In this document: positions 6,867 to 33,702 of the stretch, piece by piece
Numbering within the stretch: the stretch's first letter is position 1
Layout of the letters: the number at the start of each line of letters is the position of its first letter
DNA from: Rhodobacter sp. SY28-1
GTDB taxonomy: Bacteria > Pseudomonadota > Alphaproteobacteria > Rhodobacterales > Rhodobacteraceae
Length of the DNA stretch: 64,000 bases
Direction of reading: 5' to 3'
Assembly: GCF_005222785.1 (NCBI RefSeq)
Contig: NZ_STGH01000002.1
Coordinates: forward strand, 62,001-126,000
Translations under genes and position numbers: made by a program
The notes under the pieces: model-generated
What the model was told of the DNA's origin: nothing
What the model saw: the letters and a program-made list of their open reading frames with translations, nothing else
Databases searched by the model: none

Positions 6867-8870
6867 TCATTCGAACTCCATGATAACGTCGTCGACCTTC
6901 AGGCTCGACCCCGCGCTGGCCTTGATCTTCTTGACCACGCCCTTCCGCTCGGCCTTGAGGATGTTCTCCATCTTCATAGCCTCGACGGTCGCCAGAGCCT
7001 GACCCTCCTGCACCTCGTCACCCTCTGAGACAGCGATCTTCACCACCAGGCCCGGCATCGGGCACAGAAGGTATTTCGACGTATCCGGCGGGGCCTTCTC
7101 CAGCATCAATCCGGCCAGCGCCTTCTGGCGTGGGCTTTGCACATGGACCTTCAGATCCGCCCCGCGTAGCCGCATCCGGAAGCCCATCGGGATCTTCGCG
7201 GTCTTGATGACCAAGGGCTCACCGCCCACGGACAGGCGAGCGAGCGGCTGGCCAGGGGTCCAATCGCTTTCCACCCGCAGGTCAGTGCCATCCTCAAAGA
7301 CAACGGTAGAGCCGTGATGGTCGGCCTTGATGGTCACCGGCCAGCTTTCCCCTTGCAGCGTCACCACCCAGTCATCGCCGACCCGACGGGTATGGTTGTC
7401 CATCGTCCCGGAAATCCGCGTCCGCCGGATTTCGGCGACCCGGTTCATTGCCGCCGCCGCCGCCGCCACCCGGCGCAGAAGGCTGGAGTCCAACTTCGCG
7501 CCGGCAAACCCGCCCTCATATTCCTCGGCGATGAAGGCCGTCGTGATGTTCCCGCTGGCAAAGCGCGGATGGTCCATCACGGCGGAACAGAACGGCAGGT
7601 TGTGCCCGATCCCCTCCACCTCGAACGTGTCCAGCGCCAGCCGCATTTCCTCGATGGCATCGGCGCGGGTCGGCCCCCAGGTGCACAGCTTGGCGATCAT
7701 CGGGTCGTAGAACATGCTGATCTCGCCGCCCTCGTAAACGCCGGTATCGTTGCGCACGACCCCACCGCGTTCAGTCTTGCCCTCGACCGGGGGCCGGTAG
7801 CGAGTCAGCCGCCCGATGGAGGGGAGGAAGTTCCGGTACGGGTCCTCGGCATAAAGCCGGCTTTCCATGGCCCAGCCGTTGATTTTCAGGTCAGACTGCT
7901 TGAACGGCAGCGGCTGACCATCGGCCACGCGGATCATCTGCTCCACCAGATCGACCCCGGTAATCAGCTCCGTCACCGGATGCTCGACCTGCAAACGCGT
8001 ATTCATTTCAAGGAAATAGAAGTTGCGGTTGCCATCGACGATGAACTCCACCGTCCCGGCACTGGTATAACCCACGGCCTTCGCCAAAGCGCAGGCCTGC
8101 TCGCCCATCGCCTTCCGCGTCGCCTCGTCCAGAAAGGGCGACGGCGCCTCCTCAATGACCTTCTGGTTCCGGCGCTGGATCGAACACTCGCGTTCTTGCA
8201 GGTAGACGCAGTTGCCATGCTTGTCGGCCAGCACCTGAATTTCGATGTGGCGCGGCTGGGTCACGAACTTCTCGATGAAGATCCGGTCATCGCCAAACGA
8301 AGCCGCCGCCTCGTTCTTCGACGACTGAAAGCCCTCCCGCGCCTCGGCGTCGTTCCAGGCGATACGCATCCCTTTGCCGCCGCCGCCCGCGCTGGCCTTG
8401 ATCATTACCGGATAGCCGATCTGGGCGCTGATCTTCACCGCCTCGTCGGCATCGGCGATCAGACCCATGTAGCCGGGGACCGTGCTGACACCCGCCTCCT
8501 GCGCGATCTTCTTCGAGGTGATCTTGTCCCCCATCGCCTCGATCGCAGGCGAAGGCGGACCGATGAACACCACCCCCGCCGCCTCCAGCGCCGCGGCGAA
8601 GTTGCGGTTCTCGGACAGGAAGCCATAGCCCGGATGCACCGCTTGCGCGCCCGTCGCCTTGATCGCGGCCATGATCTTGTCGATCACGATGTAGGACTGC
8701 GCGGCGGGGGGCGGCCCGATATGCACCGCCTCGTCCGCCATCTGCACATGCAGCGCATTGCGGTCGGCGTCGGAATAGACCGCCACCGTCTTGATCCCCA
8801 TCTTGCGCGCGGTCTTGATGACGCGGCAGGCGATCTCGCCCCGGTTGGCGATCAGGATCTTGTCAAACAT
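6867..8870 (-). CDS. pccA: Propionyl-CoA carboxylase, biotin carboxylase/BCCP (alpha) subunit
   Basis: A 667-residue protein. The N-terminal biotin carboxylase domain starts MFDKILIANRGEIACRVIKT; the ATP-grasp loop KASAGGGGKGMRIAW and the catalytic block RLQVEHPVTE are intact. The C-terminal biotinyl domain carries the biotin-accepting lysine in VEAMKMENIL, about 35 residues from the end. It carboxylates its own biotin with ATP and bicarbonate; with PccB it makes methylmalonyl-CoA from propionyl-CoA. Length and domain order fit PccA rather than acetyl-CoA or pyruvate carboxylase. The start at 8870 is set by the conserved FDKILIANRGE. The gene follows a terminator at 8893-8927, so its promoter must lie very close to the ATG or there is readthrough. 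Confidence 0.96.
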   Translation of the reverse strand: MFDKILIANRGEIACRVIKTARKMGIKTVAVYSDADRNALHVQMADEAVHIGPPPAAQSYIVIDKIMAAIKATGAQAVHPGYGFLSENRNFAAALEAAGVVFIGPPSPAIEAMGDKITSKKIAQEAGVSTVPGYMGLIADADEAVKISAQIGYPVMIKASAGGGGKGMRIAWNDAEAREGFQSSKNEAAASFGDDRIFIEKFVTQPRHIEIQVLADKHGNCVYLQERECSIQRRNQKVIEEAPSPFLDEATRKAMGEQACALAKAVGYTSAGTVEFIVDGNRNFYFLEMNTRLQVEHPVTELITGVDLVEQMIRVADGQPLPFKQSDLKINGWAMESRLYAEDPYRNFLPSIGRLTRYRPPVEGKTERGGVVRNDTGVYEGGEISMFYDPMIAKLCTWGPTRADAIEEMRLALDTFEVEGIGHNLPFCSAVMDHPRFASGNITTAFIAEEYEGGFAGAKLDSSLLRRVAAAAAAMNRVAEIRRTRISGTMDNHTRRVGDDWVVTLQGESWPVTIKADHHGSTVVFEDGTDLRVESDWTPGQPLARLSVGGEPLVIKTAKIPMGFRMRLRGADLKVHVQSPRQKALAGLMLEKAPPDTSKYLLCPMPGLVVKIAVSEGDEVQEGQALATVEAMKMENILKAERKGVVKKIKASAGSSLKVDDVIMEFE

Positions 8871-8892
8871 CGGCTCCCCCCAGCGGAAATGC

Positions 8893-8927
8893 AAAAGGAC
8901 CACCCGGGCGGTCGGCCCGGATGGTCC
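8893..8927 (-). terminator. Intrinsic terminator upstream of pccA
   Basis: On the minus strand GGACCA(T)CCGGGC, loop, GCCCGGGTGGTCC is followed directly by TTTT (AAAA at 8893-8896 on the plus strand). It is a strong GC stem with a T-run, placed about 50 bases after the stop of the small lipoprotein gene and 23 bases before the pccA start. It separates that gene from pccA. Confidence 0.8.
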
Positions 8928-8974
8928 TTGTGGTCGGTATGATCCGCCCGAAGGCGGCCCGTTCAGTCAGTCGT

Positions 8975-9193
8975 TCAGTAGCCCGAGTTGCAGGGCGGCA
9001 GGCCCAGTTCGATGCCGCAAGTTGCGACACCGGCAAGACCGCCCAGCGCAGCCCCGGCCAGCATGTTTTCGTCCAGCGCGTCGGCGACCAGCGCGCCGGC
9101 CGCCGCACCTGCCATGCCGCGGGACGCAGGGTCCTGCATGCAGCCGGCCAGAGAGGTGGAAAGAAGAGCGAAGACGATAAGCGACTTCTGCAT
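8975..9193 (-). CDS. Small glycine-rich lipoprotein
   Basis: A 72-residue lipoprotein: signal MQKSLIVFALLSTSLAGC with lipobox LAGC, then a Gly/Ala-rich segment MAGAAAGALVADALDENMLA and GAALGGLAGVA resembling glycine-zipper proteins, ending with three further cysteines (CGIELGLPPCNSGY has two). It is expected to be lipid-anchored in the envelope. The start has GAGG upstream. It is transcribed like pccA and pccB but is bounded downstream by a terminator. A similar lipoprotein is at 28649. Confidence 0.75.
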   Translation of the reverse strand: MQKSLIVFALLSTSLAGCMQDPASRGMAGAAAGALVADALDENMLAGAALGGLAGVATCGIELGLPPCNSGY

Positions 9194-9509
9194 GTGATAC
9201 TGCCTCGTAGGTTTGTTGTTATTGCGCCGGATTCTACCGAAAGATCACGGATTTGGAAGCAATATCTCGCACCGCCTGCGCCGTCGGCACCACCCTGCCG
9301 CCCGACAAGGATCGGTCCGGCCTGGGACGGGCCGGACCGAAAAGAAGGGGAAGGGTAACAACGTAGACTGCGCAGGTCGTGGCCGGACTGCCAAAGACCC
9401 GCCAGGAAACAATGGCCCCACGATCCGGCCATTGCAAATCCATTGAAAACATCCGCCCCAGCGTGAGCAAAACTGTGCCAAATGGCCTGATGGGTCGGCG
9501 AAATCATGC
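9194..9509. other. 316-base non-coding gap with two stem-loops
   Basis: No convincing gene. Two hairpins are visible: CGGTCCGGCC/GGCCGGACCG at 9313-9339 (10-bp stem, no T-run on either strand) and CAATGGCC/GGCCATTG at 9410-9434, followed on the minus strand by GTTTCC, suitable as a weak terminator for the gene ending at 9510. The left end should hold the promoter of the lipoprotein gene starting at 9193 (a TAGAAT-like -10 on the minus strand near 9232-9237). Confidence 0.5.
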
Positions 9510-29079: not shown

Positions 29080-29811
29080 ATGGCTGATCCTTTTCCCGGC
29101 ATCGAGATCGCTGACGCCCGTGTCCGGCTTGGGTATCGCACGGTTCTGGATGGCCTCACCCTCAGCCTGACCCAGCGCAGGATCGGTATCCTTGGCCGCA
29201 ACGGCTCGGGCAAGACGACGCTCTTGCGGCTGATCGCGGGGCTGATCCCGGCGGCGGCGGGAACCGTTCGGGTCGAAGGGTTCGACCCCTACACCGACCG
29301 GCGCGCCGCCCTGTCTGCCATCGGCATCCTGTTCCAGAACCCGGATCACCAGATCCTGTTTCCGACGGTCGAGGAAGAACTGGCCTTCGGTCTGGCCCAG
29401 AAGGGCCTGTCACAGGCCGAAGCCCTGGCGCGCGCCAATGCGGCCTTGCAGGTTGAGACGCGCGGGCATTGGGCCAAAGCACCAGTGACGAGCCTCAGCC
29501 AGGGACAGCGTCACTACCTGTGCCTGATGTCGATCCTGCTGATGGCGCCCCGCACGATCCTTCTGGATGAACCCCTTGCCGGGCTGGACCTGCCGACGCA
29601 GACCCGTCTGGCCCGCCGCTTCGCCTCCCTGCCGCAGCGGCTGGTGACCATCACGCATGATCCCGCGACGGTGCAGGACTGCGACCGGGTGATCTGGCTG
29701 GAAAATGGACGCATCGCAGCCGATGGCTTGCCCGGCGAGGTCATCCCGGACTTCACCGCCGAAATGACCAGGATCGGAGCTGAAGATGCTGACGCTGACC
29801 TCGCCGGTTGA
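29080..29811 (+). CDS. bioM: Biotin ECF transporter, ATPase subunit
   Basis: A 243-residue energy-coupling-factor ATPase. Walker A GRNGSGKTTLLRLIAG, Q-loop ILFQNPDHQILFPTVEEELA (the NPDxQ block typical of ECF ATPases), signature SLSQGQRHYLCLMS and Walker B TILLDEPLAGLDLP with the switch His in TITHDPAT. With BioN and BioY it imports biotin, the cofactor of PccA. The start 29080 is the first good methionine after the terminator; upstream in-frame sequence overlaps non-coding bases. The stop lies inside bioN (26-base overlap). No TTATCTATAA-like BioR box was seen upstream. Confidence 0.93.
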   Translation: MADPFPGIEIADARVRLGYRTVLDGLTLSLTQRRIGILGRNGSGKTTLLRLIAGLIPAAAGTVRVEGFDPYTDRRAALSAIGILFQNPDHQILFPTVEEELAFGLAQKGLSQAEALARANAALQVETRGHWAKAPVTSLSQGQRHYLCLMSILLMAPRTILLDEPLAGLDLPTQTRLARRFASLPQRLVTITHDPATVQDCDRVIWLENGRIAADGLPGEVIPDFTAEMTRIGAEDADADLAG

Positions 29812-30382
29812 GACCTGGGCGCATCGCCTGCCTGCAGGGCCTAAGCTGGCCGCGGTGGCCGGGGTCACGACCGGACTGTTCCTTCTGTCCTCGCCCTGGA
29901 CGCTGGCGGGACCGGCCCTGGCCGCACTGGCGCTTTATCTGTCCGGGGGATGGGTCTTTGCGCGGGCGGGGCTGCGGCTTCTGTGGCCGCTTTGGCCCTT
30001 CGTGCTGGTGGTCGGGCTCTGGCATCTGTGGACTGCGGACCCTGTCGGCGGAGCGGTGGTGCTGCTGCGCATGTTCAGCGCGGTGGCGCTGGCGAATTTC
30101 GTCACCATGACCACGCGGCTGTCCGACATGCTGGCGGTCATGGAGCGTCTGGCCAGCCCGTTGTCTCCCGTTCTGCCGCCACGGCGACTGGCGCTGGCCT
30201 TCGCGCTGGTGATCCGCTCCATCCCGGTGATGGTCGAACGGATGGACCAGATCCGGCAATCCTGGTCCGCCCGCGCCCCGCGCCGGCCGCGCTGGCGGGT
30301 GCTGGTCCCGGCGGTGCTGGCGGCGCTGGACGACGCGGACCGCGTGGCCGATGCCTTGCGGGCACGCGGCGGGTCGGGATAA
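29786..30382 (+). CDS. bioN: Biotin ECF transporter, transmembrane coupling subunit
   Basis: A 198-residue membrane protein, short for EcfT, as BioN usually is. Four or five hydrophobic segments begin GVTTGLFLLSSPWTLAGPAL. The cytoplasmic coupling helices with Ala-Arg-Gly-type motifs are at the C-terminal end (QSWSARAPRRPRW and DALRARGGSG), where the ATPase docks. It overlaps bioM by 26 bases and is followed by bioY after 29 bases, giving the order bioM-bioN-bioY as known in Rhodobacter. Confidence 0.9.
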   Translation: MLTLTSPVETWAHRLPAGPKLAAVAGVTTGLFLLSSPWTLAGPALAALALYLSGGWVFARAGLRLLWPLWPFVLVVGLWHLWTADPVGGAVVLLRMFSAVALANFVTMTTRLSDMLAVMERLASPLSPVLPPRRLALAFALVIRSIPVMVERMDQIRQSWSARAPRRPRWRVLVPAVLAALDDADRVADALRARGGSG

Positions 30383-30411
30383 GTGGGCGCGAACCAACTG
30401 GCGGGGACATC

Positions 30412-30954
30412 GTGGAACGCAACCTTACCCATATCGCTCTGTTCGCCGCGCTGATCGCAGTGCTGGGCCTGATCCCGAAGATCGATCTCGCCTCGGGTGT
30501 GCCGATCACCGCACAGTCGATGGGCATCATGCTTTGCGGCGCGGTGCTGGGTGCGCGGCGCGGTGCGCTGGCGGTGCTGCTGTTCCTGGCGCTTGTGGCG
30601 GCGGGCTTGCCGCTTCTGTCCGGCGGGCGCGGCGGGATCGGGGTCTTTGCCGGACCGTCCGTCGGCTTCCTCGTGGGCTTCCCAGTCGCGGCCTTCGTCA
30701 CCGGATGGTTCATGGAACGGACCACACTTTCGCCCATGGTCGCGGCAACGGCGGCCTCGGTGATCGGCGGGATCGGAGTGCTGTACGTCTTCGGTATCAT
30801 CGGCATGTCGATGGTGCTGGACAAGACGCTGGGCGAGGCCGCCTTCCTGTCCGCAGCCTTCCTGCCGGGCGACGCGATCAAGGCGGTGATCGCCGGTCTC
30901 GTGACGCAAAGCCTGTCGCGGATGCGGCCGGCCTCGCTCCTCTCCCGCGCCTGA
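30412..30954 (+). CDS. bioY: Biotin ECF transporter, substrate-binding S component
   Basis: A 180-residue, six-segment membrane protein. LTHIALFAALIAVLGLIPKI, GVPITAQSMGIMLCGAVLGA and GGRGGIGVFAGPSVGFLVGF are the conserved BioY blocks; the last two line the biotin pocket. It starts at a GTG (30412) preceded by GGCGGGGAC; no better ATG is in frame. The stop codon is only two bases from the facing stop codon of the thiolase gene, an extremely tight convergent junction without a terminator. Confidence 0.93.
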   Translation: MERNLTHIALFAALIAVLGLIPKIDLASGVPITAQSMGIMLCGAVLGARRGALAVLLFLALVAAGLPLLSGGRGGIGVFAGPSVGFLVGFPVAAFVTGWFMERTTLSPMVAATAASVIGGIGVLYVFGIIGMSMVLDKTLGEAAFLSAAFLPGDAIKAVIAGLVTQSLSRMRPASLLSRA

Positions 30955-30956
30955 GA

Positions 30957-32027
30957 CTAATCCGGGGCCTCGACCAGCAGCGCGGTCCCGATTCCCCCGG
31001 CTGCGGCGATTGCGGCAAGGCCCCGGCCCTGTCGCAAGCCGTGGAACAGCCGGACCGCAAGCACCGCGCCCGAGGCCCCGACCGGGTGCCCGCGGGCCAG
31101 CCCTCCCCCGCCCGGGTTGACGATGGCGGGGTCCAGCCCCGCCCCCTCCACCACAGCGATGGCCTGAACGGCATAGGCCTCCATGATCTCGGCCATGGCA
31201 AGCGCCTGGCCGCCCCAGATCGCCCGGATCGCGGCCACTGGGGCGAGGCCGGGCTCCATCGGGTCGCCTCCGACCGTCCTCCCCGCCAGAAGCGTCAGCC
31301 CACGGCCTTGCGCAACCCGGTCGCTGACCACCAGGCAGAGTGCAGCCGCATCGGCAGCGACGGCAGCCGTCGCGGCGGTGATGCCGCCGTGCACGACGGG
31401 TGCCCGGGCAAGAAGGCGCGGCGACAGTTGCCGGGGGAACGCATCCTGCATCACCCCGTGCAGCGGCACGATCTCGGCCGACAAATCCGCCGCCAGCGCC
31501 TTGTCGTGGCTTGCTGTCGCCCAGGCCTCTTGCCGGTCCCGGCCAATCCCCAGCCGCAAAGCCAGCGCATCGGCGGCCTCTGCCATGCCCGGGTTGCGGT
31601 CCGGCCAGGGGGTGAAAGGCGCCTCGTCGTAGGGCACCGCAGGGCCGCCATCCGGATCGGTCCGCAGGCGCAAGGGACGGCGGGAGTAGCTTTCGACGCC
31701 ACCCGCGACCACAACCTCGGCCGCGCCGGAATCCACCAGGGCCTTGGCCAGCAGGATGGCATCGAGGCCCCCCGCGCATTGCCGGTCCATGGTCAGACCC
31801 GCCACCATCTGCGGCAGGCCAGCCGCCAGAGCCACCCGCCGGGCGGGGTTTCCCCCCGCGCCAAGGGCGTTGGACAGGATCACCTCATCAACCTGTCCGG
31901 GGGCAATCCCGGCATCGGCAAGGCATGCGGCAAGAACCGGCGCCGCGAGCTCCTCCAGCGACAGCCGCGCGAAGGCCCCGCCCCGGGGAACCACCGCCGT
32001 CCGGCGCGCCGCGATCAGCCGGGCCAT
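30957..32027 (-). CDS. Thiolase-family protein with altered active site, next to bioY
   Basis: A 356-residue thiolase fold. The nucleophilic Cys is present in LTMDRQCAGGLDAILL and the catalytic His in GGGGLARGHPVGASG. Two usual residues are changed: the NEAFA motif reads IMEAYAVQ (Asn to Met), and the C-terminal CxGGG loop reads AIAAAGGIGTALLVE (second catalytic Cys to Ala). It could still transfer an acyl group through the remaining Cys/His. The start overlaps the 3' end of the acyl-CoA ligase gene by 13 bases, so they form an operon. BioY beside a thiolase and an acyl-CoA ligase resembles the yhfU-yhfT-yhfS set of Bacillus. The substrate is unknown. Confidence 0.82.
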   Translation of the reverse strand: MARLIAARRTAVVPRGGAFARLSLEELAAPVLAACLADAGIAPGQVDEVILSNALGAGGNPARRVALAAGLPQMVAGLTMDRQCAGGLDAILLAKALVDSGAAEVVVAGGVESYSRRPLRLRTDPDGGPAVPYDEAPFTPWPDRNPGMAEAADALALRLGIGRDRQEAWATASHDKALAADLSAEIVPLHGVMQDAFPRQLSPRLLARAPVVHGGITAATAAVAADAAALCLVVSDRVAQGRGLTLLAGRTVGGDPMEPGLAPVAAIRAIWGGQALAMAEIMEAYAVQAIAVVEGAGLDPAIVNPGGGGLARGHPVGASGAVLAVRLFHGLRQGRGLAAIAAAGGIGTALLVEAPD

Positions 32028-33205
32028 GACAGGCTTGCCTCCAGCGCCTTGAGGTCGGTCTTGCCCGAGGCAAGCACCGGCCAGTCGTCCCGCCAGATCA
32101 ACGCCTTGGGGGCCTTGGTCGGGCCAAGCGTTCCCCGCAGGCTGCCAAGGATCGCATCCTCTTGCCCCGCATCGCCCTGCAGGACCGCCACCAGCGCATG
32201 GCCGCGCAGTGCGTCCTTGACCGGCAGCACCGCAGCGCGGCTCACGCCGGGCAGCGCCTGCAAGAGCGCCTCGATCTCTTCGGGAAAGACGTTCTGGTCG
32301 GCCACCGTGACCATGCGCCCTGCGCGCCCTTTCAGGTAAAGGTAGCCAGACTGCAGACTGCCGATCTCGCCCACCGACAACCAGCCATCCCGCCACCTTG
32401 TACCGCCGGGTCCCTGCCCTTCCTGTCCGGCGCCGAGGACCGATTGATCGCCGTAGCCAAGAAACAGGTAGGTGCTGCGCACCCAGACCTCATCGCCGGG
32501 ATCAACCGTGATCTCGACACCCGGATAGGCTCGCCCGACCGATGCATCGGGAGTCTCGGCATCGGCAAGCGTGATGAAGCTTGTCTCTGCCGCGCCATAA
32601 AACTCGCGCACCTGCGCGTTGGGTGCCAAGGCGGCAAGCGCGTTGCACAGTGTCGCATCAAGCTTTGACCCGCCGACGAAGACGAACTGCAGGTCCGGAC
32701 ATGGGTCCTGCGCCGCAGCCAGCAGCCGCAATTGCGCGGGCGTGGCATACAGATGGGTGACCCCACGCCGTCCAAGCGCAACAGCCTGACGGTCCGGGCG
32801 CAGCGCATCAAGAAGGTGGACCTCCGCCCCCAGATGCACCCCCTCGACCGCACCGTAGAGCGACAGGGAATGGGCCAGCCGCCCCAGAACGGCAACCCGC
32901 GCCCCCGGGCCGATGCCGAAGCCCGCATTGACCGCAAAGCTTGCCGTCCAGGAGGCTTGGGTGCGACGGATGCGGCGTGGCCGCCCGGTCGACCCAGATG
33001 TCAGCGTTTCGAACACCGGCCGCCCCTCCGGGTCCGGCGCGGGCTGATCCGCCGCGCCGATGCGGAAGGCCGGGTGTCCGATCGCCGCCGCAAGCCCTGC
33101 CGGGGTGTCGGGCAGCACCGCACCGCTTTGCGGCACAGGTGGCACCAAGGTCCCGGAACTGTCGAACAGCCGGGCCTTGGGATGCCACCGAAAGCTGTCG
33201 GTCAT
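32015..33205 (-). CDS. Short AMP-binding acyl-CoA ligase
   Basis: A 396-residue adenylate-forming enzyme, about 100 residues shorter than typical acyl-CoA synthetases at the N-terminus. The phosphate-binding loop is [14 protein letters not shown] (usual Lys replaced by Arg), the A5 motif is [11 protein letters not shown], the A7 motif [10 protein letters not shown] has Glu for the usual Asp, and the catalytic A10 lysine is in [10 protein letters not shown]. It should activate a carboxylic acid to its CoA thioester for the thiolase that follows. A pimeloyl or other dicarboxylic substrate is only a guess from the bioY linkage. Its start overlaps the aroQ stop (ATGA). Confidence 0.82.
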
Positions 33206-33642
33206 GCCGTCAGAAGCGTGGCGATCCGGCGCAGCGCCAGAAGATAGCCTTCCGTCCCGCAGCCCGCGATCACCCCGTCGGCGCGGGCCGAGACGTAGGA
33301 GTGGTGGCGGAACGCCTCGCGCTTGTGGATGTTCGAGATATGGACCTCGATTACCACACCTTCATAGGCGTTCAGGGCGTCCAGGATGGCGATGGAAGTG
33401 TGGGAATAGGCACCAGGGTTGATGATGATCCCCGCACTCGTCCCCCGCGCCGCGTGGATCCAGTCGACCAGCTGGCCTTCGTGGTTTGACTGCAGCGCCT
33501 TGACCCGGAGGCCGAGGTCGTCCGCCAGGTCCGACACCTTGGCCGCCACGTCGTCCAGCGTTTCCCGCCCATAGATTTCCGGCTGGCGCAGGCCAAGCAG
33601 GTTCAGGTTCGGGCCGTTCAGCAGGGTGACGAGTTTCGACAT
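33202..33642 (-). CDS. aroQ: Type II 3-dehydroquinate dehydratase
   Basis: A 146-residue protein: [20 protein letters not shown] with the lid tyrosine in EIYGRETL, the [14 protein letters not shown] block, [19 protein letters not shown] and [20 protein letters not shown], which together are diagnostic of the dodecameric type II enzyme (AroQ). It converts 3-dehydroquinate to 3-dehydroshikimate. Start 33642 is set by homology; five further in-frame codons upstream are unlikely. It leads the aroQ-ligase-thiolase unit with overlapping starts and stops. Confidence 0.96.
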
Positions 33643-33702
33643 GGGGCGTCCGCGCAAAGGGTTCGCGCGAGATTAGCCGATATGCCTGTCGGGACAACGG
33701 GC

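Follow-up and report, generated by a model that had tools for sequence, protein, structure and literature searches.

Why should the genes of a biotin importer meet, stop codon to stop codon, those of an acyl-activating ligase and a thiolase-like protein? The question is raised by a stretch of 64,000 nucleotides (nt) of Rhodobacter sp. SY28-1, henceforth the window, in which bioM, bioN and bioY (bioMNY) converge on such a gene pair; the genome is alphaproteobacterial, 4.28 Mb in size and 98.9% complete (labelled G000 here, with the window on contig C2). The explanation which we favour, and to which we would give about an even chance, is that the ligase and the thiolase-fold enzyme form one unit of the YhfT/YhfS kind, aiding BioMNY in gaining usable biotin at a step after uptake and not in pimelate synthesis. 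It builds on observations concerning the kinship of the two proteins, their linkage to bioY, the pattern of BioB and biotin protein ligase, the loss of a catalytic cysteine and the presence of extra gene partners, from which we infer a substrate and a mechanism.

Kinship of the pair and its linkage to bioY

Gene reading and Pfam matches agree with the arrangement originally predicted for this locus, in which bioMNY faces a thiolase and a ligase with two bases between the stops. The forward strand carries bioM (29080-29811), encoding the ATPase of a biotin energy-coupling-factor (ECF) transporter (Pfam ABC_tran, 82.3 bits; its top two NCBIfam matches are energy-coupling-factor ATPases, both under their cut-offs), bioN (29786-30382), which overlaps bioM by 26 nt and encodes the transmembrane (T) component (CbiQ, 60.9 bits), and bioY (30412-30954, from a GTG start at 30412 picked by eye), encoding the biotin-binding S component. 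The latter is the only BioY match of the genome and, at 124.5 bits against a cut-off of 25 and with the CbiQ and ABC_tran genes adjoining, qualifies as part of a BioY transporter. Its stop is separated by two bases (30955-30956) from that of the thiolase-fold protein, which is encoded on the reverse strand (30957-32027, 356 amino acids; Thiolase_N 130.5 and Thiolase_C 59.9 bits) and overlaps by 13 nt, counted from an ATG at 32027, the gene for an AMP-binding ligase of the ANL type (32015-33205, reverse strand, 396 amino acids; AMP-binding 85.0 bits).

The top NCBIfam match of the ligase is NF005797 (PRK07638, YhfT), at 177.6 bits against a cut-off of 518, and it reaches no other NCBIfam cut-off either; Bacillus mojavensis YhfT scores 725.7 bits with the same model, above the cut-off, and at an E value of 1e-90 B. 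subtilis is the sole match to PRK07638 among 14 control genomes. Similarly, the thiolase-fold protein has NF005212 (PRK06690, YhfS) as its best specific NCBIfam match, behind the generic TIGR01930, and misses the cut-off of 498 with 194.3 bits, compared to 621 bits, above the cut-off, for the thiolases of B. halotolerans and B. mojavensis. At E values of 1e-20 or better, all 20 members of alignment A4 match PRK07638 and all 22 members of A3 match PRK06690.

In a phylogenetic tree of the ligases, from which near-duplicates, the broken row of L279, the second ligase of L254 and the over-extended frames of L033 and L255 had been set aside, 45 partner ligases, Bacillus YhfT included, are split from 17 others by a branch with support 100/100 that is present in all 200 bootstrap trees. 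The thiolase tree, for which 36 rows were hand-picked from the 48 partner members and 22 from the 41 comparison thiolases with a view to run time and spread, separates the partners (YhfS included) from the others by a branch with support 99/95, again found in all 200 bootstrap trees, the row closest to the canonical side being that of Listeria (L214). An earlier tree of 54 rows set the partners apart from 24 other thiolases in the same way (100/98) and placed three members from loci devoid of bioY (L035, L043 and L054) on the partner side. The two window proteins belong to the YhfT and YhfS clades as divergent members and fall outside the narrow NCBIfam families. The original prediction had allowed that the two proteins might prove phylogenetically unrelated to YhfT and YhfS and unlinked to bioY in relatives; both trees unite the partners with YhfT and YhfS, and this objection therefore fails.

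Linkage to bioY was followed by comparing neighbourhoods in several surveys. From 100 genomes of the window's own family the best 30 ligase loci were taken, and a partner thiolase adjoins the ligase in 15 of these; bioMNY flanks 13 of the 15 pairs (window included in both counts), in convergent orientation at 10, divergent at one (L041) and co-directional at two (L044 and L045). In a class-wide survey of 192 genomes, seven genomes scored 444-514 bits with the thiolase profile (the next best match being 341), and bioY is beside the pair in four of the five class loci new to this survey, the exception being G151. Plasmid searches matched 185 and 126 records, of which 13 were opened; bioY is beside the pair in 10 of these 13, including two records from Actinomycetota (Nonomuraea and Streptantibioticus). 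Among plasmid-borne relatives, those nearest to the window thiolase come from Rhodobacterales.

For Bacilli, 200 genomes from the class of B. mojavensis were surveyed at a ligase E value of 1e-90 or better, a threshold that would miss more distant pairs such as that of Listeria. A YhfT-type ligase was retrieved from 15 genomes, 12 of which have bioY adjoining the pair; in two of the 15, ECF ATPase genes are nearby without bioY in the stretch read. The gene also adjoins the pair in B. halotolerans, Listeria grayi and Pelosinus. Besides the convergent and divergent arrangements, the orders bioMNY-ligase-thiolase, bioY-bioM-bioN-ligase-thiolase, bioY-ligase-thiolase-bioM-bioN, bioY-ligase-thiolase and bioY-thiolase-ligase were encountered. 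The adjacency of bioMNY and the pair exceeds chance, and the recurrent association across distant groups that had been proposed is thus found in Alphaproteobacteria, Actinomycetota (two records), Bacilli and Pelosinus.

Bacillus itself was absent from the 126 plasmid records matching the Azospirillum ligase (E 1e-40), 113 of which are Rhizobium records, and a phage phi3T protein, tried as a route to Bacillus genomes, had no relative; these genomes were reached instead by a pattern search for the BirA box. One locus of the Bacilli (L279, 5302-6994) appears to hold a broken pair, with the thiolase match in two pieces and a half-length ligase match alongside a full-length bioY match.

In some lineages a nitroreductase or a thioesterase joins the set, which is new here. 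A nitroreductase gene is located between thiolase and bioY in records of Alloyangia, Marivivens and Thioclava and adjoins the thiolase in two Paracoccus records. The Alloyangia type (56-70% identity) is present in five of the 100 family genomes, all five being pair genomes, and in four of them between bioY and the thiolase; in G054 the nitroreductase adjoins bioY although the pair sits on a different contig. A one-directional run bioY-bioM-bioN-nitroreductase-ligase-thiolase is seen in G258, and nitroreductase-ligase-thiolase (nitroreductase of 42% identity) in G151; the window genome holds no nitroreductase at E 1e-30. In Streptantibioticus a thioesterase heads bioM-bioN-bioY-ligase-thiolase, and in three Rhizobium records a thioesterase of the same Pfam family precedes the ligase. 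The latter loci (L054, 11522-14635 of Rhizobium etli p42f, together with L047 and L056) read thioesterase-ligase-thiolase without bioY and have lost the same cysteine as described below; panC-panB lies within about 10 kb of the pair in L054 and L056.

Active site of the thiolase-fold protein and fold of the ligase

According to passages of PMC3406046, the Zoogloea thiolase binds the acyl group at Cys89, builds its oxyanion hole from Asn316 and His348, and uses Cys378 as the base. The window protein retains the first cysteine (C84) and the histidine (H314), and carries M282 in place of Asn316 and A341 in place of Cys378 (Zoogloea numbering for the replaced residues). An alignment of 48 partner members, from which near-duplicates and the multi-domain thiolases L197 and L203 had been removed, gives the same picture: Cys89 and His348 are retained throughout, Cys378 is lost in 47 (replaced by Gly in 23 members, by Ala in 22 and by Pro in two, with Cys in Listeria grayi), and position 316 holds Asn in 24 members, Met in 23 and Val in one. 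Four members from alphaproteobacterial loci that have no bioY beside the pair (L035, L043, L054 and L254) have lost the cysteine as well. It is retained in all 41 other thiolases, which represent the best non-member matches and not a random sample. The loss of the second cysteine in the partner clade is new here.

The AlphaFold model of the thiolase-fold protein (mean pLDDT 95.6) superposes on the Clostridium acetobutylicum thiolase 4xl3 (Z 54.4, root-mean-square deviation (rmsd) 1.9, 354 residues aligned), and thiolases alone are among the structure matches listed; that ketoacyl synthase (KAS)-type enzymes fall outside these listed matches does not speak against a likeness to KAS. With TIGR01930 the protein scores 224.2 bits, short of the cut-off of 240.55. 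Of the four residues needed for Claisen chemistry by thiolases (Cys89, His348, Asn316 and Cys378) the last two are replaced, and ordinary Claisen condensation or thiolysis is unlikely because the second catalytic cysteine is lost. The remaining chemistry would be narrowed to acyl transfer or a KAS-like decarboxylative condensation; KAS enzymes, too, are not known to have the thiolase base. The name thiolase, as given in the original prediction, is therefore apt for the fold and the Pfam domains, and doubtful as a statement of function.

The ligase retains a P-loop, a YGAAE motif (YGxxE) and a C-terminal SGK lysine. Its AlphaFold model (mean pLDDT 85.4) has as top match the feruloyl-CoA synthetase 8wev (Z 30.1, rmsd 3.4, 371 aligned), ANL-type enzymes alone being among the matches listed. 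The fold is about equally like ANL ligases that use coenzyme A (CoA), carrier-protein or amine acceptors, and given these near-tied Z values the acceptor, be it CoA, acyl carrier protein (ACP) or another, is not picked by structure. For B. subtilis YhfT, passages of a review (PMC10988940, citing Kraas et al.) describe acyl-adenylates that are passed to ACP, no CoA thioesters, and a role as activator of surfactin fatty acids; PMC9936203 offers only a knock-down effect on amylase yield.

Biotin supply and the role of the pair

The original prediction offered the metabolism of a biotin precursor or a vitamer as a role, and the precursor option is not supported for this organism; a vitamer role may hold. 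The best BioB match in the window genome attains 30.4 bits, where 225 would be required, so that BioB was not found in this 98.9% complete assembly, and biotin protein ligase is present (109.9 bits, cut-off 83.1). The same combination recurs in the alphaproteobacterial pair genomes: BioB above cut-off is missing from 19 of 20 (14 of 15 in the family and all five in the class, the remaining genome, G079, having BioB), and all 20 encode biotin protein ligase. This combination in pair genomes is new here. Elsewhere, B. mojavensis, B. halotolerans, Aneurinibacillus and Pelosinus possess BioB, and Listeria grayi lacks it.

Since BioB is absent and biotin protein ligase present, the supply of pimelate or a pimeloyl precursor for biotin synthesis would be excluded as a role in these BioB-less genomes, barring an unrecognised biotin synthase, and for the window genome it is refuted unless such an enzyme or an assembly gap is involved. 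As a general account of the pair it is highly improbable, even if pair and BioB occur together in B. halotolerans, B. mojavensis, Aneurinibacillus, Pelosinus and G079, and an acyl ligase with a condensing-enzyme fold suits a seven-carbon acid; the absence of BioB from the window genome, from nearly all other alphaproteobacterial pair genomes and from L. grayi speaks against it.

The acid handled by the pair is taken to be biotin or a biotin vitamer because of the linkage, the biotin repression in Staphylococcus aureus and the auxotrophy. In the mechanism that we propose, the substrate of the ligase would be a biotin-type acid brought in by the importer, either biotin or a side-chain vitamer; the ligase would adenylate its carboxyl and hand the acyl group to a thiol, which could be CoA, ACP or, directly, C84 of the partner enzyme. 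This partner, having C84 and H314 and no base for the alpha proton, would not carry out ordinary thiolysis but would transfer the acyl group or condense it with decarboxylation; in lineages that have them, the flavin nitroreductase may adjust the side chain and the thioesterase may free the acid. A more daring version, which we regard as rather improbable, is vitamin repair in biotin auxotrophs: a shortened biotin (e.g. bisnorbiotin) would be imported and activated by the YhfT-type ligase, two carbons would be added by decarboxylation through the KAS-like thiolase-fold enzyme, the nitroreductase would help in reduction and the thioesterase would release biotin, yhfT-yhfS of Bacillus being the same pathway under BirA.

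Several observations weigh against a biotin-directed unit. Within the stretches read, the pair occurs without bioMNY at two of the 15 family loci (L035 and L043) and without bioY in the three Rhizobium plasmid records and in L254, L277 and L278; in another locus of the Bacilli (L276) bioY is 4.4 kb away from the pair, with the ECF set. The L. grayi thiolase retains Cys378. Nitroreductases of 32-41% identity are found in 17 more family genomes, which mostly lack the pair. No member has a known substrate in a biotin context, and the biochemistry of YhfT, in the passages of PMC10988940, concerns fatty acids of the surfactin type and would suit a function in fatty-acid metabolism just as well. Absence of BioB was rejected as an association of the pair, being no commoner in pair genomes (six of six) than in BioY genomes at large (70 of 81, p = 0.40); indeed, 71 of the 82 BioY genomes in the class sample of 192 are without BioB. 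The lack of BioB hence excludes a role, yet is no association in itself. All seven class members belong to this group of 71, which combine BioY with a lack of BioB (p = 0.002 excluding G000), a result that mostly restates the link to BioY.

Control by biotin adds to these points. Regulons of BirA and BioR have reportedly been described by Rodionov and others; the search used a BirA-type palindrome and the BioR box consensus TTAT.TATAA. No exact BirA-type palindrome occurs in the window, where a lineage-specific form of the box would escape, and no BioR box occurs in the window (at most one mismatch) or in 27 scanned loci, where other forms would escape. Among 24 upstream stretches of 12 loci, the best shared 10-mer (one mismatch) was found in eight, compared to seven or eight of 24 in five shuffles. 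Neither box having turned up in the window, and no motif being shared beyond the level of the shuffles, control of the alphaproteobacterial pairs by biotin is at most a conjecture. In Listeria grayi (L214, 4691-7722), a genome without BioB, a BirA-type box is followed by bioY, ligase and thiolase.

The strongest rival to biotin acquisition is a biotin-sparing lipid role, strongest because the biochemical report on YhfT concerns fatty acids. Biotin shortage would make acetyl-CoA carboxylase fail, upon which the pair would charge ACP or CoA with fatty acids, taken up or recycled, so that lipid synthesis could continue, the link to biotin being regulatory and physiological and not chemical. The condensing-enzyme fold of the partner is in keeping with this, as are the fatty acyl-adenylates which YhfT passes to ACP (PMC10988940, in the passages cited above) and the BirA-mediated repression of the operon by biotin in S. 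aureus (passages of PMC6391492 and PMC7235819). Against it, the pair is conserved next to the transporter itself across unrelated orders and in a variety of gene arrangements, which goes beyond what a shared stress requires, and in one case (G054) the nitroreductase remains with bioY where the pair has moved. We consider this role unlikely, albeit the closest contender.

Two further rivals appear decidedly improbable, and to a similar degree. Ligase and thiolase could start to degrade the side chain of biotin by beta-oxidation, for which the gene classes are suited (activation and thiolysis) and the occasional flavin enzyme would be welcome; such breakdown is at odds with the repression by biotin in S. 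aureus, as given in passages of PMC6391492, with hosts unable to make biotin and with the loss of the cysteine required for Claisen chemistry. Alternatively, reductase, ligase and an exporter could serve the disposal of, or defence against, biotin analogues (antivitamins) entering via BioY. The nitroreductase and the major facilitator superfamily (MFS) neighbours speak for this option; neither neighbour is general, and repression by biotin would be needless for defence. The MFS transporters in question are annotated after the thiolase on two Azospirillum plasmids (L046, 7153-8388; L057, 8552-9801), that of L046 resembling EntS-type exporters, below the cut-off.

The preferred explanation, help in gaining usable biotin after uptake, bears on a known gap. 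The link of bioY, yhfT and yhfS in Bacilli is already known: biotin or BirA control is in print for yhfT-yhfS of S. aureus and for bioY with yhfS and yhfT of B. subtilis, yet passages of PMC6391492, PMC7235819 and PMC11089781 leave these genes without a role in biotin metabolism. The original view that the function remains undescribed accordingly holds for the link to biotin, and has to yield as regards BirA control (the same sources) and the study of YhfT as a surfactin fatty-acid activator (passages of PMC10988940). Titles, abstract openings and passages of the literature, with few subscription journals among them, contained nothing on the pair in Alphaproteobacteria or Actinomycetota, the lost cysteine, or the nitroreductase and thioesterase partners. 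With this pair now seen next to biotin importers in another phylum, in bacteria that are biotin auxotrophs, the customary assumption of precursor synthesis falls away for those organisms. If it is true that the substrate is a biotin vitamer, the pair would represent a salvage route for a vitamin that many auxotrophic bacteria need.

Neighbouring genes and likeness to known systems

The first gene of the ligase-thiolase run in the window is aroQ (33202-33645, reverse strand), encoding a type II 3-dehydroquinate dehydratase (Pfam DHquinase_II 196.3 bits; NCBIfam NF003806 221.4 bits, cut-off 171). The coupling to aroQ noted earlier is real in the window, where aroQ and the ligase gene overlap by 4 nt, and is that of a merely local partner: aroQ is upstream of the pair only in the window, L032, L033, L034 and L058 (Thioclava), and was not found when queried in further class loci, in Bacilli loci or in the L. 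grayi, B. halotolerans and Pelosinus loci. An HpcH/HpaI-type aldolase gene (8706-9470, Pfam 177.4 bits) is inserted between aroQ and the ligase in L033, and on the Thioclava plasmid (L058, 3574-4248) a gene for a GntR/FCD-type regulator adjoins aroQ-ligase-thiolase.

Among known systems, the BioMNY biotin ECF transporters are represented in the window by all three components in adjacent genes, and nothing unusual was noticed in the transporter. The ligase shares its fold with the ANL enzymes 8wev, DltA (7vhv), McbA (6h1b) and MenE (5gtd), at Z 29.0-30.1, rmsd 3.0-3.9 and 371-385 aligned residues, and differs from full-length kin, including its Azospirillum or Bacillus relatives, in an N-terminal part shortened by some 80-90 residues and in reaching no NCBIfam cut-off. 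The biosynthetic thiolase PhaA (4o99) shares with the thiolase-fold protein the fold (Z 53.6, rmsd 1.8, 353 aligned), the acyl cysteine and the histidine of the GHP motif; compared to PhaA and the Zoogloea ramigera thiolase, the window protein has Ala for Cys378 and Met for Asn316. The BirA-regulated yhfT-yhfS of S. aureus can be likened to the pair by literature description only and not by protein comparison. The nearest counterpart is bioY-yhfT-yhfS of Bacillus, with which the window has in common the same two enzyme clades by tree, an adjoining bioY, a ligase that precedes the thiolase, and a thiolase-fold protein that retains the acyl cysteine and histidine and has lost the second cysteine. 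It departs from the Bacillus set in its full bioMNY, its convergent arrangement rather than a single operon, the aroQ at the head of the run, the lack of an exact BirA-type box and of BioB, the shortened ligase and the Met in place of Asn316.

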